Origin: Promicromonospora iranensis
GTDB lineage: Bacteria > Actinomycetota > Actinomycetes > Actinomycetales > Cellulomonadaceae
DNA: 64,000 nucleotides
Direction: 5' to 3'
NCBI RefSeq assembly: GCF_028994805.1
Contig: NZ_JAJQQP010000004.1
Location: 124,001 to 188,000, forward strand
In this document: one piece after another, positions 53,306-57,980 of the stretch
Layout: the number at the start of each line of letters is the position of its first letter
Numbering within the stretch: the stretch's first letter is position 1
Position numbers and translations under genes: made by a program
The notes under the pieces: generated by a model
Database searches by the model: none
What the model was told of the DNA's origin: nothing
The model's input: the letters and a program-made list of their open reading frames with translations, nothing else

Positions 53306-53369
53306 CGTTGAGTGCTGGGTATCTGCTGGGTTGATGGCCTTCGCGCCAGCAGATACCCAGCACTCAACG
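53306..53369. repeat. 24-bp perfect inverted repeat at the end of the siroheme synthase gene
   Basis: Arms 53306-53329 and 53346-53369 are perfect complements with a 16-nt loop. The right arm contains the stop codon region of the siroheme synthase gene (53364-53366), and the whole lies upstream of the M6 protease promoter. It would terminate the sulfite operon; its size exceeds a typical terminator. Confidence 0.65.
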
Positions 53370-54647
53370 AGCTTGTTGCGCCCAGGCGGGCGAGAGGCGG
53401 ACTACCGCGCCCACCACGATGACCGCGGGGGGCTGCACGCCGGCCTCGGCCGCGCGGGCGGCGATCGTGGCCAGCGTGCCGACCGTGACGCGCTGCCCCG
53501 GGCCGTAGCCGTCCTCGACCACGGCGGCCGGGGTGTCGGCGGGGCGGTCAGCGGTCACCAGGGCGTCGGCGGTCTCGGCCAGCCGGGTGACGCCCATGAG
53601 CAGCACGAGCGTGTGATCGGCGCCGCCCGGCACCTCGGCCGCGCCGTCGTGCCCGGTCAGGACGCTGAAGCCGCGCGCGACACCGCGGTGCGTGACCGGG
53701 ATGCCCGCCGCGGCGGGGACCGACACGGCGCTGGTCACACCCGGCACCACCTCGACCTCGATGCCCGCTGTGCGGCACGCCGCGAGCTCCTCGCCGCCGC
53801 GGCCGAACACGTACGGGTCACCGCCCTTGAGGCGCACGACGTCGCGCCCTGCCTGGGCGTGCTGGATCAGCAGCGCGTTGATCTCGTGCTGCGGCACCGG
53901 GTGGTTGCCGCTCGTCTTGCCGACGTCGATGACCTCGACGTCGGGCGAGAGCTCGTGGAGCAGCGCGCGCGGGCCGAGCCGGTCGATGATCACGACGTCG
54001 GCCTGCGCGAGCGCCGTGCGGCCGCGCGCCGTGATGAGGCCGGTGTCGCCGGGGCCGCCGCCGACGAGCCAGACCCGGCCGGGGGACTGCGGCGTCGGAC
54101 GGCGCCGGCGCAGCGGCAGGCTGCCGGACTGGAGGGCTGCCGACACCGCGTCCCGGATCGCCGTCGCCCGTCGCGGGTCGCGTCCTGCGGTCACCGAGAC
54201 GGTCACCTCGGCGTCGTCGGTCAGGGTGGTGCGGGCCACGGCCGGGACCCATGCGCTGCCCACCGAGGCGTCGCCCGCGGTGACGCAGAAGACCCGGGCG
54301 CGCTCGGCGTCGTCGGACACCCGGCGGTCCACCTCGGCCGAACCCGTCGCCGTGTGCACGAGCCACGCCTCGTCGAGGTCGCCCGTCCGGTAGGCGCGGG
54401 CGGCGAGATCCACCGCGCCGGGAGCCGACACGCGGGCCAGGACCGCCAGCTCCTCGCACACGTCCGGTGCGACCACACGCACCCGCGCGCCCGCCTCGAC
54501 GAGCGCCCGGGCACGGCGCGCGGCGACCGGCCCGCCGCCGACCACCACGACGAGCCGCCCGGCGATCTTCAGCCCCAGGGGGTAGATCTCGTGCGCCACC
54601 CCTCCATCGTGCGCCTCGGCGGTGGGCAACGGCGCGGCGTCAGACAT
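53364..54647 (-). CDS. cysG: Siroheme synthase: precorrin-2 dehydrogenase/uroporphyrinogen-III methyltransferase
   Basis: The 427-residue fusion has an N-terminal CysG-type NAD-binding domain (about 25-170: LKIAGRLVVVVGGGPVAARRARALVEAGARVRVVAP) and a C-terminal SUMT domain (about 190-427: VWLVGGGPGDTGLITARGRTAL, VIIDRL, VRLKGGDPYVFGRGGEE, VVPGVTSAVSVPAAAGIPVTHRGV). It makes siroheme for sulfite reductase, which is why it is the last gene of the sir-cysH operon. The start at 54647 overlaps the cysH stop by 8 nt. The N-terminal ferrochelatase capacity is not certain from sequence. Confidence 0.93.
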   Translation of the reverse strand: MSDAAPLPTAEAHDGGVAHEIYPLGLKIAGRLVVVVGGGPVAARRARALVEAGARVRVVAPDVCEELAVLARVSAPGAVDLAARAYRTGDLDEAWLVHTATGSAEVDRRVSDDAERARVFCVTAGDASVGSAWVPAVARTTLTDDAEVTVSVTAGRDPRRATAIRDAVSAALQSGSLPLRRRRPTPQSPGRVWLVGGGPGDTGLITARGRTALAQADVVIIDRLGPRALLHELSPDVEVIDVGKTSGNHPVPQHEINALLIQHAQAGRDVVRLKGGDPYVFGRGGEELAACRTAGIEVEVVPGVTSAVSVPAAAGIPVTHRGVARGFSVLTGHDGAAEVPGGADHTLVLLMGVTRLAETADALVTADRPADTPAAVVEDGYGPGQRVTVGTLATIAARAAEAGVQPPAVIVVGAVVRLSPAWAQQAR

Positions 54648-55500
54648 GGAGACCGCACTCGTCCTTGTCGAGGCCGGCCCACCGGCCGGAGCGCGCGTCC
54701 TCGCCGGGCAGCGGCCGAGCGGTGCACGGTTCGCAGCCGACCGACGGGTAGCCGTCGGCGAGCAGCGGGTTGACGACGAGGCCGTGCCGCGCGGCATAGT
54801 CGGCGACCTCGTCGTCGGTCCACGCGGCGATCGGGTTGATCTTGACCACGCCGTTGCGCTCGTCCCAGCTGACGAGCGGCGCGTTGGCGCGTGCGGCGGT
54901 CTCGCTGCGGCGCACGCCGGTGGCCCAGGCCTCGTAGTTCTCCAGCGCCTTCTTCATCGGCGCCACCTTGCGCATGGCGCAGCAGGCCTCGGGGTCGCGG
55001 TCGTGCAGCTTCGGTCCGTACTTCGCGTCCTGCTCGGCCACGCTCAGCTCGGGGCGCACGTCCACGACGTTCACGTCCAGCTCGATCTCGACGGCGCCGC
55101 GGGTGCCCAGCGTCTCGGCGAAGTGGTAGCCCGTGTCACCGAACAGCACGTCCACGAACGGGAACTGCTCGGCCACGAGGTGCGACAGCACGGTGTCCTG
55201 CATCGAGGACGCCACCGCCATGTACGGACCGAACTCCCGCACGGCCCACGCGATGACCGCCTGGGCGTTCGCCTCCGGCGTGTCCCCGCACGCGTTCAGC
55301 TGCGCCTGGCCGCGCTCCACCACGGCCCGCAGCTCCCCGGGGGTCCGACGGCGGCGCTTGGCCCGCGCGGCCGGCCGCATGGCACGGATGCTCTCGCGGG
55401 CGGCGGCCCGGGCGCGCACCCGCGCCAGCCGCGGGTTCACCCCCGAGCCCGGCCCGGAGAGCGACAGAGAGGAAATCGCCGCGGCTTCCGTCGTGGTCAT
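54640..55500 (-). CDS. cysH: Adenylylsulfate (APS) reductase
   Basis: CysH reduces APS to sulfite with electrons from thioredoxin. The 286-residue protein has the ATP-pyrophosphatase-like fold and the iron-sulfur cysteines of APS reductases: the CC pair in PEACCAMRKVAP and the pair in GCEPCTARP, so it uses APS rather than PAPS. FGDTGYHFAETL is a family motif; the ECGLH end carries the catalytic cysteine. The stop overlaps cysG, and the ATG overlaps the sir stop (ATGA at 55497-55500), so the operon is translationally coupled. An N-terminal 60 residues rich in Ala/Arg is extra. Confidence 0.95.
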   Translation of the reverse strand: MTTTEAAAISSLSLSGPGSGVNPRLARVRARAAARESIRAMRPAARAKRRRRTPGELRAVVERGQAQLNACGDTPEANAQAVIAWAVREFGPYMAVASSMQDTVLSHLVAEQFPFVDVLFGDTGYHFAETLGTRGAVEIELDVNVVDVRPELSVAEQDAKYGPKLHDRDPEACCAMRKVAPMKKALENYEAWATGVRRSETAARANAPLVSWDERNGVVKINPIAAWTDDEVADYAARHGLVVNPLLADGYPSVGCEPCTARPLPGEDARSGRWAGLDKDECGLHV

Positions 55501-57212
55501 CGAAGAGCCTCCTCGTCGGCGCGGTGTGCCCACTGTGCGAACGTCTCTTCGCCGTCGTGGTCGGCGTCGTACCGGCGGACCACGCGCTCCACGTAGTCGC
55601 CGATCCCGTCGGCGGTCACCTTGAGCCCGCGCACCGTGCGGCCGAGCCCGGCGTCGTCCCGGTCCAGCGACGTCAGGCCGCCACCGAGGTGGACCTGGAA
55701 GCCGGGCACCTGGTTGCCGTCGTCGTCCATCACGAGCTGACCCTTGAGGCCGATGTCGGCCGTCTGGATGCGGGCGCACGAGTTGGGGCAGCCGTTGACG
55801 TGCAGGCTCAGCGGCTTGAGGTTGTCCAGGTCTCCCAGCCGCTCCTCGAGCTGCGTGATCGCCTCGGCCGACGTCGCCTTGGTCTCGACGATCGCGAGCT
55901 TGCAGTACTCGATGCCGGTGCAGGCGATCGTGTTCCGGCGGAAGATGCTCGGTCGCGCCTGCAGCCCGAGCTCGGCGAGGCCGGCGACGAGCGGCTCGAC
56001 CTCCGCCTCGGCGACGTCGAGAACCAGGAGCTTCTGCTGCGGGGTGAGGCGGATCCTGCTGCTGCCGTGCGCCTCGGCGAGGTCCGCGAGCTGCGCGAGG
56101 ATCTCGCCCGAGACGCGGCCCACGGTCGGCGCCGCACCGATGTAGAAGCGGCCGTCGTGCTGCTCGTGGATGCCCACGTGGTCGCCGCGCTCGTCGAGGC
56201 CCAGCGACGCGGGCGACGGCGGATCGATGCTGTCGCGGAGCTTGTAGCCCAGGTACTCGTCCTCCAGGACCTGGCGGAACTTCTCCACGCCCCAGTCCGC
56301 GAGCAGGAACTTCAGGCGGGCCTTGTTGCGCAGCCGGCGGTAGCCGTAGTCACGGAAGATGCGGACCACGCCGTGCCAGACCTCGGGCGCCTCCTCGGCG
56401 GAGACGAAGGCGTTCAAGCGCTCCGCGAGACGCGGCGCCGTCGACAGCGCGCCGCCCACCCACACGTCGTACCCGATGCCCAGCTCCGGGTGATCGACGG
56501 CGACGAACGAGATGTCGTTGATCTGGTGCACCACGTCCAGGCTCGGGTGGCCCGTGATCGCCGACTTGAACTTGCGCGGCAGGTTCGCCAGCGCAGGGTC
56601 GCCGATGAACCGCCTCTGGATCTCCTCGATCACCGGTGTCGGGTCGATGAGCTCGTCCTTCGCGACCCCCGCGACCGGGCTGCCGAGGATGACGCGCGGC
56701 ACGTCGCCGCAGGCCTCCGTGGTGCTCAGCCCCACGGCCTCCAGGCGACGCCAGATCTCGGGCATCGACTCGACCTCGATCCAGTGCAGCTGGAGGTTCT
56801 GGCGGTCGGTGATGTCCGCGGAGTCGCGGCCGAAGTCGGTGCTGATGTCCGCGATGACGCGCAGCTGCTCGGTGGTCAGCGCCCCGCCGTCGATCCGGAC
56901 GCGCAGCATGAAGTACTTGTCCTCGAGCTCGTGCGGCTCCAGCGTCGCGGTCTTGCCGCCGTCGATCCCCGGCTTGCGCTGCGTGTACAGGCCCCACCAG
57001 CGGAACCGGCCGTGCAGGTCGTCGCCGGGGATGGAGTCGAAGCCCTCCTTGGCGTAAACCTGCTCGATGCGCTCGCGGACCTTGAGCGGGTCGGACTCCG
57101 CCTTGAACTCCTCGTTGTGGTTCAGCGGAGCGGTGCCGTCGATCTTCCACTGGCCGTTCGGGCGAGCGGGTCGCTTGGTCGTGCGGGGCTGGGCAGGGGC
57201 CGTGTTGACCAT
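55497..57212 (-). CDS. sir: Assimilatory sulfite reductase (ferredoxin-type)
   Basis: Sir reduces sulfite to sulfide with siroheme and a 4Fe-4S cluster. The 571-residue protein has two NIR_SIR repeats; the cluster/siroheme ligands are the cysteines in CTGIEYCKLA (C-x5-C) and NGCPNSCAR (C-x3-C). ITDRQNLQLHWIE and GYDVWVGGALST are family motifs. It is the first large gene of sir-cysH-cysG and is preceded by a cysteine-rich uORF at 57372-57476 with about 160 nt between. ATG 57212 is chosen because the homology begins with it; the ribosome site is weak. Confidence 0.95.
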   Translation of the reverse strand: MVNTAPAQPRTTKRPARPNGQWKIDGTAPLNHNEEFKAESDPLKVRERIEQVYAKEGFDSIPGDDLHGRFRWWGLYTQRKPGIDGGKTATLEPHELEDKYFMLRVRIDGGALTTEQLRVIADISTDFGRDSADITDRQNLQLHWIEVESMPEIWRRLEAVGLSTTEACGDVPRVILGSPVAGVAKDELIDPTPVIEEIQRRFIGDPALANLPRKFKSAITGHPSLDVVHQINDISFVAVDHPELGIGYDVWVGGALSTAPRLAERLNAFVSAEEAPEVWHGVVRIFRDYGYRRLRNKARLKFLLADWGVEKFRQVLEDEYLGYKLRDSIDPPSPASLGLDERGDHVGIHEQHDGRFYIGAAPTVGRVSGEILAQLADLAEAHGSSRIRLTPQQKLLVLDVAEAEVEPLVAGLAELGLQARPSIFRRNTIACTGIEYCKLAIVETKATSAEAITQLEERLGDLDNLKPLSLHVNGCPNSCARIQTADIGLKGQLVMDDDGNQVPGFQVHLGGGLTSLDRDDAGLGRTVRGLKVTADGIGDYVERVVRRYDADHDGEETFAQWAHRADEEALR

Positions 57213-57371
57213 GTGTGGGGTCCTGTTCGTGCGGGGCGCGCGGGCGTGGAGCTGATGCTGGGGGAGTTGTGCGCGTCGTACGGGCACAGGCGACCGGTTC
57301 CCGGGTGTGACCAGGGACTCAGTGCTGCGGGCCGGCGGCGCGCGCTGACCTTGCAGGGGCGAAGGGGCGCG

Positions 57372-57476
57372 TCAGAGCTGACAGCTGCGACAGCAGTCGC
57401 AGGCACAGGTCGGCATGGCACACATGGGCATCTCGTGACGGGTGGTCACGAGGAAGATGCGCGCTGCCTTGGTCAT
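57372..57476 (-). CDS. Cysteine-rich leader peptide (polycysteine uORF) of the sir operon
   Basis: A 34-codon frame begins at ATG 57476, ends with TGA at 57372-57374, and lies 159 nt upstream of sir. It encodes six cysteines at positions 19, 24, 26, 28, 29 and 32, five of them within nine codons near the end. A TAACGT -10 box (complement of 57484-57489) ends 7 nt before the ATG, so it is leaderless. Polycysteine leaderless uORFs are described in mycobacteria as cysteine-responsive attenuators of sulfur-assimilation operons; the position and content here match that class. The peptide itself probably has no function beyond ribosome stalling. Confidence 0.8.
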   Translation of the reverse strand: MTKAARIFLVTTRHEMPMCAMPTCACDCCRSCQL

Positions 57477-57483
57477 GGCGATG

Positions 57484-57489
57484 ACGTTA
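57484..57489 (-). promoter_or_regulatory. -10 box of the sir operon and uORF
   Basis: TAACGT on the minus strand is separated from the uORF ATG by CATCGCC (7 nt). A transcript starting at the A of that ATG would also carry sir-cysH-cysG. Confidence 0.65.
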
Positions 57490-57521
57490 ACCGCCGGTGG
57501 TGAAGGGCGGAAGGGGACGTC

Positions 57522-57564
57522 CACATAGTGGATGTCTATCGGGTACATCGATGTTGCCTATGTG
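57522..57564. promoter_or_regulatory. Nested palindromes between the sir uORF and a divergent membrane gene
   Basis: CACATAG (57522-57528) and CTATGTG (57558-57564) are perfect complements. Inside, GATGT (57531-57535) pairs with ACATC (57545-57549). A further CCCTAC (57568-57573)/GTAGGG (57581-57586) pair lies beside them. The AT-rich symmetry about 50-90 nt upstream of the uORF start suggests a sulfur or redox regulator site. Confidence 0.4.
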
Positions 57565-57626
57565 TTACCCTACTGGAACGGTAGGGAATGGGAGGGGTCG
57601 CCTGGCCCACAGCTAGGCTGACGGCC

Positions 57627-57980
57627 ATGGAATTCCTTTACAACGTCTTCGTCTTCGTGCACTTCGCGAGCTGGGCCCTCGTGTTCGGAGGCGCCATCGC
57701 GTCGATGCGGACCAAGGCCCTCTACAAGGGTGTCTCGCACGGTGCCATGGGTGCCGTCGTCGCGGGCGTCATCATGGTCGGCATTGCGGAGATGGGCGGC
57801 CTGTGGGACGACGGCGGTCCCTCGATGGCGAAGATCGGCGTCAAGCTGGTCATCGCGCTTGCCGTCGCCGTGCTGGCCGTGCTCGCCGTCCGCAAGGGCG
57901 AGGACGTCTCCCAGGGCCTCAAGGGCTCGGTGCTCGGGCTCACCCTGGTGAACATCCTGGTCGCCGTCTTCTGGAACTGA
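57627..57980 (+). CDS. Small integral membrane protein
   Basis: The 117-residue protein has about four membrane helices: FLYNVFVFVHFASWALVFGGA, GAMGAVVAGVIMVGIAEMGG, GVKLVIALAVAVLAVLAV and GSVLGLTLVNILVAVFWN. The FVHFASWALVFGGAI start with a His in the first helix is typical of a conserved actinobacterial family of unknown function. A TAGGCT box (57614-57619) ends 7 nt before ATG 57627 (leaderless). It is divergent from the sir operon and shares the palindrome-rich region with it. It converges on the N-acetyltransferase gene. Confidence 0.8.
   Translation: MEFLYNVFVFVHFASWALVFGGAIASMRTKALYKGVSHGAMGAVVAGVIMVGIAEMGGLWDDGGPSMAKIGVKLVIALAVAVLAVLAVRKGEDVSQGLKGSVLGLTLVNILVAVFWN

Follow-up and report, generated by a model that had tools for sequence, protein, structure and literature searches.

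A leaderless-type cysteine-rich uORF upstream of sir-cysH-cysG in Promicromonospora iranensis as a candidate cysteine-responsive leader

Introduction

The stretch of Promicromonospora iranensis DNA analysed here (the window; 64,000 nucleotides of contig NZ_JAJQQP010000004.1) carries sulfate assimilation genes on its minus strand, preceded by a short upstream open reading frame (uORF) rich in Cys codons. This raises the question of whether the frame serves as a leader that adjusts the expression of these genes to the supply of cysteine and, if so, at which step of expression it would act. The genome carrying the window comprises 5.84 Mb in 31 contigs.

The E. coli trp attenuator is the classical example of such control, with sensor codons near the stop of the leader frame and alternative pairing of segments 2, 3, and 4. 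Leaderless polycysteine attenuators have reportedly been described in M. smegmatis by Canestrari and colleagues in 2020, with ribosome stalling opening the sequestered Shine-Dalgarno (SD) sequence of the next gene. That work (Canestrari et al. 2020) is cited in the accessible text of Smith et al. 2022 (PMC9094748), PMC9031893, and PMC13236596. A leaderless Cys-rich uORF before nirA/Msmeg_4527 in mycobacteria is described in the accessible part of Shell et al. 2015 (PMC4633059), and leaders with Cys runs were predicted in Mycobacterium, Propionibacterium acnes, and Bifidobacterium longum, according to the accessible part of Seliverstov et al. 2005 (PMC1262725).

Results

The first gene of the presumed operon, sir (55497-57212, minus strand; PF01077, PF03460), belongs to the nitrite/sulfite reductase family and is followed by cysH of the phosphoadenylyl-sulfate reductase family (54640-55494, minus strand, range as searched; PF01507) and the siroheme synthase gene cysG (53364-54641, minus strand, range as searched; PF00590, PF13241). 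The operon is presumed because of gene order. No NCBIfam equivalog was matched by the sir protein at or above cut-off, and it is the cysH-cysG context that leads us to call it a sulfite rather than a nitrite reductase. The likely sir start is the ATG at 57212, with an SD sequence AGGA at 57221-57224 (minus strand), 8 nt before it.

The uORF occupies 57372-57476 on the minus strand and has 34 codons, from an ATG at 57476-57474 to a TGA ending at 57372, with the translation MTKAARIFLVTTRHEMPMCAMPTCACDCCRSCQL. Its six Cys codons are codons 19, 24, 26, 28, 29, and 32, five of them within codons 24-32, and its stop lies 159 nt from the likely sir start. A -10 box, TAACGT (57484-57489, minus strand), has its end 7 nt upstream of the ATG. 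The first-pass annotation had described the frame with its start, stop, and coordinates, the number and clustering of the Cys codons, the distance to sir, and the box, and all of these were borne out. The locus thus has a trait expected of leaderless polycysteine attenuators: a short frame ahead of a cysteine-pathway operon, with its Cys codons bunched towards the stop. Weak matches to the uORF peptide elsewhere in its own genome (L158, L159) were rejected as chance on inspection.

Within the genus, a TANNNT box at a spacing of exactly 7 precedes the frame in all 11 sir loci. The length of the uORF differs by +3 in three loci and by -9 in one; as these are multiples of three, the reading frame is kept. 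Conservation of the Cys codons had been proposed as a check of the leader model, and the outcome is mixed: codons 26, 29, and 32 are invariant in the genus peptides (11/11), whereas the other three vary, with codons 19 and 24 each present in 8/11 loci and codon 28 in 2/11, giving totals of 3 to 6 Cys codons per uORF. The Cys cluster is thus kept in the genus and its exact codons partly so, and the fact that only 3/6 Cys codons are invariant counts against the leader model.

The survey was widened to 95 sir loci from the 121 genomes of the window's family, made up of the 30 best loci and 65 more, with weak paralogue matches and secondary fragments omitted and two genomes contributing two loci each. 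A looser rule (TANNNT 5-8 nt before an ATG, GTG, or TTG, a frame of 10-60 aa, and at least 2 Cys) was satisfied by 67/95 loci. Under a strict rule (TANNNT at a spacing of 6-8, ATG or GTG, 15-50 aa, and three or more Cys among the last 14), such a frame was found in 61/95 loci compared with 0/1900 dinucleotide shuffles and 1/95 antisense sequences. Sixty-five of the 95 loci formed the working set for later analyses. Among the 30 loci outside this set, a short Cys-rich frame is present in 16, and two of these (L060, L096) also have a TANNNT box. In 14/95 loci no such frame was found under either rule, which counts against the leader model. These counts confirm that the Cys-rich uORF before sir is real, and the indels and the wide presence among genera also speak against a chance frame.

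Upstream of the box, a predicted operator, CCACTATGTGGAC, is located at 57519-57531 (minus strand) and begins 55 nt before the uORF ATG. In 58/65 family loci a similar site, defined as sharing at least 9 of 13 letters, starts 52-56 nt upstream of the uORF start; of mononucleotide shuffles, 11% attain this score at any position within 130 nt. That a promoter element keeps a constant distance to the start codon speaks for a leaderless transcript, and both signs of a leaderless start are present in the sequence: TANNNT 7 nt before the ATG and the fixed operator distance. We infer that the transcript starts at the uORF ATG, with which the operator spacing is in agreement. No sigma-70 consensus (TTGACA/TATAAT) was found in a scan of 57150-57700, so that the -10 part alone is recognisable.

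The surrounding region holds other conserved elements. The operator-like site forms the last 13 bases of a conserved block, CATAGGCAACATCGATG...GATAGACATCCACTATGTGGAC, at 57519-57564. An inverted repeat, TTACCCTAC...GTAGGGAA (plus strand), lies at 57565-57588, upstream of the sir promoter and before a divergent gene at 57630, and is kept with small changes in the genus. The divergent gene (57630-57977, plus strand) encodes a small protein of 116 codons which appears hydrophobic by eye and had no NCBIfam or Pfam match.

Inside the uORF, an 8-bp RNA hairpin, H1 (CTCGTGAC-N5-GTCACGAG), is predicted at 57432-57452 (minus strand). A stem of at least 7 bp starting at uORF nt 22-27 was found in 42/65 loci. 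Shuffling of synonymous codons gave a mean z of 1.48 over the 65 loci, with single-locus p mostly 0.005 to 0.2 in hairpin-bearing loci, and is no more than suggestive of H1. Covariation was then counted in 40 of the 65 loci (29 distinct rows), chosen after the synonymous-codon shuffle test. Left out were 22 loci lacking an alignable LVT-type region, most of which have no hairpin there, as well as L014 and L078, whose loop lengths differ, and L003, which is a copy. In the selected loci, 5/8 pairs had changes on both sides (as high in 4/500 shuffles), 95.7% of cells were paired compared with 84.3% in shuffles, 23 cells had both sides changed compared with 5.5, and the covariation score was 0.350 compared with 0.149; none of 500 shuffles reached any of the last three values, although the counts are inflated by related sequences. 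Further pair types showed no excess (8 compared with 8.4; as high in 409/500 shuffles), and versions of H1 slid along the sequence were at most 51.7% paired.

Some of the paired changes in H1 swap two amino acids together, for example Val and His for Thr and Arg, which implies that selection acts at least partly on the RNA. The first-pass annotation had drawn attention to a His codon before the Cys cluster; the codon is there, but given the covariation of H1 it is, together with the Val codon, better explained by the RNA hairpin than by a peptide signal. A second possible hairpin, H2 (TGCGAC-N4-GTCGCA; 57386-57401, minus strand), spans Cys codons, and its arms are unchanged in 11/11 genus loci, leaving no covariation to read.

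The spacer between the uORF and sir occurs in the window's lineage in a short form of 57-62 nt and a long form of mostly about 130-160 nt. In the window, segment A (CGCGCC; 57366-57371, minus strand) directly follows the uORF stop and is a possible partner of the spacer 5' arm (B5), and a conserved spacer block, segment B (57308-57354, minus strand), is the counterpart of a hairpin, B, seen in other genera, with 5' arm B5 and 3' arm B3. Pairing was assessed by swapping segments between species in 22 of the 65 loci and for 21 segment pairs, in which the B5 and B3 segments share 2 nt, C overlaps with SD, and results involving the "mid" segment are unreliable since this segment is empty or nearly so in some loci. 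The arms of hairpin B pair more stably with their own partners than after swapping (-20.8 versus -17.3 kcal/mol; 0/2000 permutations). The pair A:B5 gave p 0.042, one of 21 segment pairs and not significant after correction; the fit of segment A to the C and SD segments is worse than after swapping, and B3:SD showed no coevolution (p 0.43).

Because a joint alignment of the region after the stop is too conserved and partly out of register, exact complements were counted instead. The B5 stem 5-mer has its exact complement within 20 nt after the uORF stop in 30/31 loci compared with 0.017 expected per locus, in a set restricted to loci with the element, containing related sequences, and with the motif defined after viewing them. 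As B5 fits B3, and A holds the B5 complement, B5 has two possible partners. Mutually exclusive pairing of the post-stop segment and the hairpin is thus partially supported, from genera other than the window's. Within the genus the spacer is nearly invariant, and the changes, one in the window and two in L010, break presumed stem pairs; the window's presumed B stem has one mismatch. A riboswitch was rejected, as none of 4227 Rfam families matched at E up to 10 over 57000-57900.

Beyond the family, 60 sir loci from the class were examined, representing 25 family labels outside the window's own and drawn from the 194 of 246 genomes with a match. A leader with LVxRRHVD...C was found in 39/60 loci and 18/25 labels, compared with 0/60 antisense, and a [TC]ANNNT box lies 5-8 nt before an in-frame start in 25/39 of these leaders under a loose rule applied without a control. 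The strict LVxRRHVD motif is absent from all 95 loci of the window's family. Among four LVxRRHVD-type peptides scanned, two pass the NCBIfam model NF042934, one passes neither model, and one, the L113 leader from another family, passes NF042936 at 49.7 bits. The window peptide matched no NCBIfam family at E up to 10 and reached neither the NF042936 cut-off (45 bits; five family relatives also gave nothing) nor the NF042934 cut-off (27 bits). The NF042934 profile had no matches in the whole of the window's own genome, and control genomes gave none either. Fitting neither model, the window peptide represents a variant leader. When the profiles of the window-family and class-wide peptides were compared, a weak similarity around LVxxRH emerged (hhalign probability 35.6%, P 0.00039), which is suggestive of common descent of the two kinds of leader peptide.

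Among named sir loci, 20/80 have a Cys-rich frame, and the genera include Promicromonospora, Antribacter, Myceligenerans, Oerskovia, Cellulosimicrobium, Sanguibacter, Sediminihabitans, Paraoerskovia, Isoptericola, Luteimicrobium, Cellulomonas, and Pengzhenrongella. Loci of Arthrobacter, Pseudarthrobacter, Microbacterium, and Brevibacterium had none under the same rule, one Arthrobacter locus having just 62 nt upstream. In the NF042934-type leaders (L122, L129, L113, and others), the amino acids RRHVD are constant and their codons varied, a hint that these leaders have their own role at the level of the peptide.

A comparable frame precedes another cysteine gene. Upstream of cysK in the genus, a frame led by an SD sequence was found, with GGGAGGACGTC followed by TTG (ATG in L261), which in the window's genome ends in MCATDCCPRGCL before the stop. 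In 11/13 genus genomes, three or more of the last 14 codons of this frame encode Cys. Upstream of cysN, no frame with both a box and Cys codons was found in 1500 nt, and a Cys-rich frame without a box lies about 1.2 kb upstream. Joint ribosome-mediated control of cysteine genes has been proposed for mycobacteria, and the frames described here suggest that several cysteine genes may likewise be under joint control by ribosomes. The cysK promoter region (L240, the window's genome) also holds a near-palindrome, TGAGACAGATCTTGTCTCA, which is identical in 12/13 genus genomes and which we take to resemble the McbR site of Corynebacterium.

Discussion

The leaderless-type Cys-rich uORF is probably a cysteine-responsive leader of sir-cysH-cysG that acts by ribosome stalling, a reading to which we assign a probability of roughly 0.8 on the basis of sequence comparison, which shows the frame, its promoter spacing, its conservation in the family, H1, and, in other genera, hairpin B. 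Weighing against it, besides the variable Cys codons and the loci without a frame, are the lack of a gain in SD accessibility in models of a stalled ribosome, the weak fit of A:B5, the missing excess of further pair types in H1, the genus changes that break presumed spacer stem pairs, and the absence of a terminator-like site and of a sigma-70 consensus in the region scanned. The mRNA of sir-cysH-cysG would begin at the ATG of the 34-codon frame and be translated without a leader. When charged tRNA-Cys is scarce, the ribosome would stall at the clustered Cys codons towards the end of the frame, and the leader RNA would refold so as to raise expression of an operon making sulfide for cysteine; the direction of the switch, like the cysteine response itself, we infer. 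In related genera, B5 of the GC-rich spacer hairpin may pair either with B3 or with A. The first-pass annotation had likened the frame to the leaderless polycysteine uORFs of mycobacteria, and this likeness is supported by the 61/95 family loci, the fixed promoter distance, and the nirA/Msmeg_4527 case.

As to the controlled step, translation and transcription appear equally probable to us, each at a little under even odds. Translation attenuation, in which the leader RNA hides the sir SD sequence and a stalled ribosome frees it, is the mechanism for which the accessible text of PMC13236596 cites mycobacteria. Minimum-energy folding predicts, for the window and also for L003, that the SD (ACAGG) base-pairs with CCTGT in uORF codons 23-24, which include a Cys codon. 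A CCTG at 57287-57290 (minus strand) is complementary to CAGG of the sir SD and a possible anti-SD; such a CCTG is found 71-78 nt before the sir start in 11/11 genus loci. However, CCTGT is missing from 3/11 uORFs, the SD partners vary among the 11 genus folds, and opening the SD costs no more in the window than in shuffles (2.0 versus 3.1 kcal/mol). Loci with short spacers (L013, L015-L018) have a helix over the SD, which L013 retains with different letters and at an opening cost of 14.0 kcal/mol versus 7.9 in shuffles, yet L013 lacks a switch, and the helix is not clearly above shuffles in L015 and L018. In equilibrium models, run on 32 of the 65 loci for each placement, SD accessibility showed no gain when a ribosome occupied the last Cys codon (mean change -0.23 kcal/mol, shuffles 0.02; 20 shuffles per locus) or the first one of the end cluster (-0.63 kcal/mol, shuffles -0.30; 12 shuffles per locus). 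Single loci in the last-Cys test behaved as predicted (L034, 3.5; L079, 2.4 kcal/mol) or oppositely (L074, -6.9). SD sequestration relieved by a stalled ribosome is thus unsupported as a general rule in both placements, and the lack of B3:SD coevolution also stands against it. With transcription attenuation, either trp-like or Rho-dependent, hairpin B or Rho would terminate transcription in the spacer unless the ribosome stalls. The arrangement of A, B5, and B3 is that of the trp leader, and Rho was proposed for mycobacterial cys leaders in PMC1262725, where the accessible text calls the prediction weak; on the other hand, no U-tract terminator-like site occurs in 57150-57700, and the swap test supports A:B5 weakly.

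Two further explanations dispense with tRNA-Cys charging. An arrest peptide or small protein, in which the Cys residues themselves matter, is suggested by the class-wide leaders, which hold LVxRRHVD and one Cys at the amino-acid level. In the window's family, however, much of the peptide is variable and amino acids change in pairs that preserve RNA pairing, as with the Val/His to Thr/Arg exchange in H1, and we consider this explanation distinctly improbable here. That the frame is a chance one, with control exerted solely through the conserved upstream operator, is hardly credible: a well-placed operator-like site is indeed present, but the frame is not produced by shuffling, its indels preserve the reading frame, and it recurs in many genera.

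The leader interpretation can be set against known systems. The mycobacterial nirA (Msmeg_4527) uORF, represented by NF042936 (leader_Ms4527A), has the same downstream gene family, a leaderless start, and Cys codons, but the peptide of L113, LVARRHVDYKRVCSACC, differs from the LVTTRHEM...C.CDCC..C of the window, which scores nothing on that model. NF042934 (cis_reg_atten, putative leader peptide) likewise sits before sir in many actinobacterial families, although its leaders often have a single Cys and an RRHVD core, whereas the window's family is without the strict motif. The M. smegmatis polycysteine attenuators, as far as the accessible literature describes them, likewise have clustered Cys codons in a leaderless uORF that precedes genes of the cysteine pathway and differ in the SD sequestration for which the window's family gives no general support. 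In the Cys-run leaders of PMC1262725, too, the Cys runs sit close to the stop of a short frame ahead of cys genes and an intrinsic terminator is lacking, but these leaders come from other taxa, and the accessible text reports no conserved terminator hairpins, whereas hairpins are conserved in the window's family. As in the E. coli trp attenuator, sensor codons lie near the stop and possible alternative pairing follows right after it; the differences are the absence of a U-tract terminator, the leaderless-type start, and Cys in place of Trp. In Streptomyces lividans, the leader metL (before metNIQ) ends in ARCMCRRMCAF with three Cys codons, according to Table 4 of PMC8079986 in its accessible part, and it might be a cysteine leader.

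Extension of such control beyond mycobacteria, presented as a new idea by the first-pass annotation, had already been predicted in 2005 in the accessible text of PMC1262725, and NCBIfam has models for such leaders. A literature search, mostly without subscription papers, returned no report of such a leader in Promicromonospora or its family and no description of a hairpin like H1. New here are the covarying hairpin in the uORF, the conserved spacer hairpin with a second possible partner for its 5' arm, and the SD-led cysK uORF. A wider history can be sketched, which we hold tentatively and on balance doubt. An ancient sir leader, shared by actinobacteria and consisting of the peptide and a GTG...CAC hairpin through the Val/His codons, may have been remodelled in the Promicromonospora/Cellulomonas lineage: a leader with mostly one Cys would have become a polycysteine sensor that counts codons and operates a three-way RNA switch, joined in Promicromonospora by an SD-led cysK counterpart.

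Many families of the class have leaders before sulfite reductase, and in one lineage these take a distinct polycysteine form that escapes the NCBIfam models. The covarying hairpin within the frame is a concrete, testable element, and the short and long spacers that occur naturally in the lineage allow control of translation to be separated from control of transcription.
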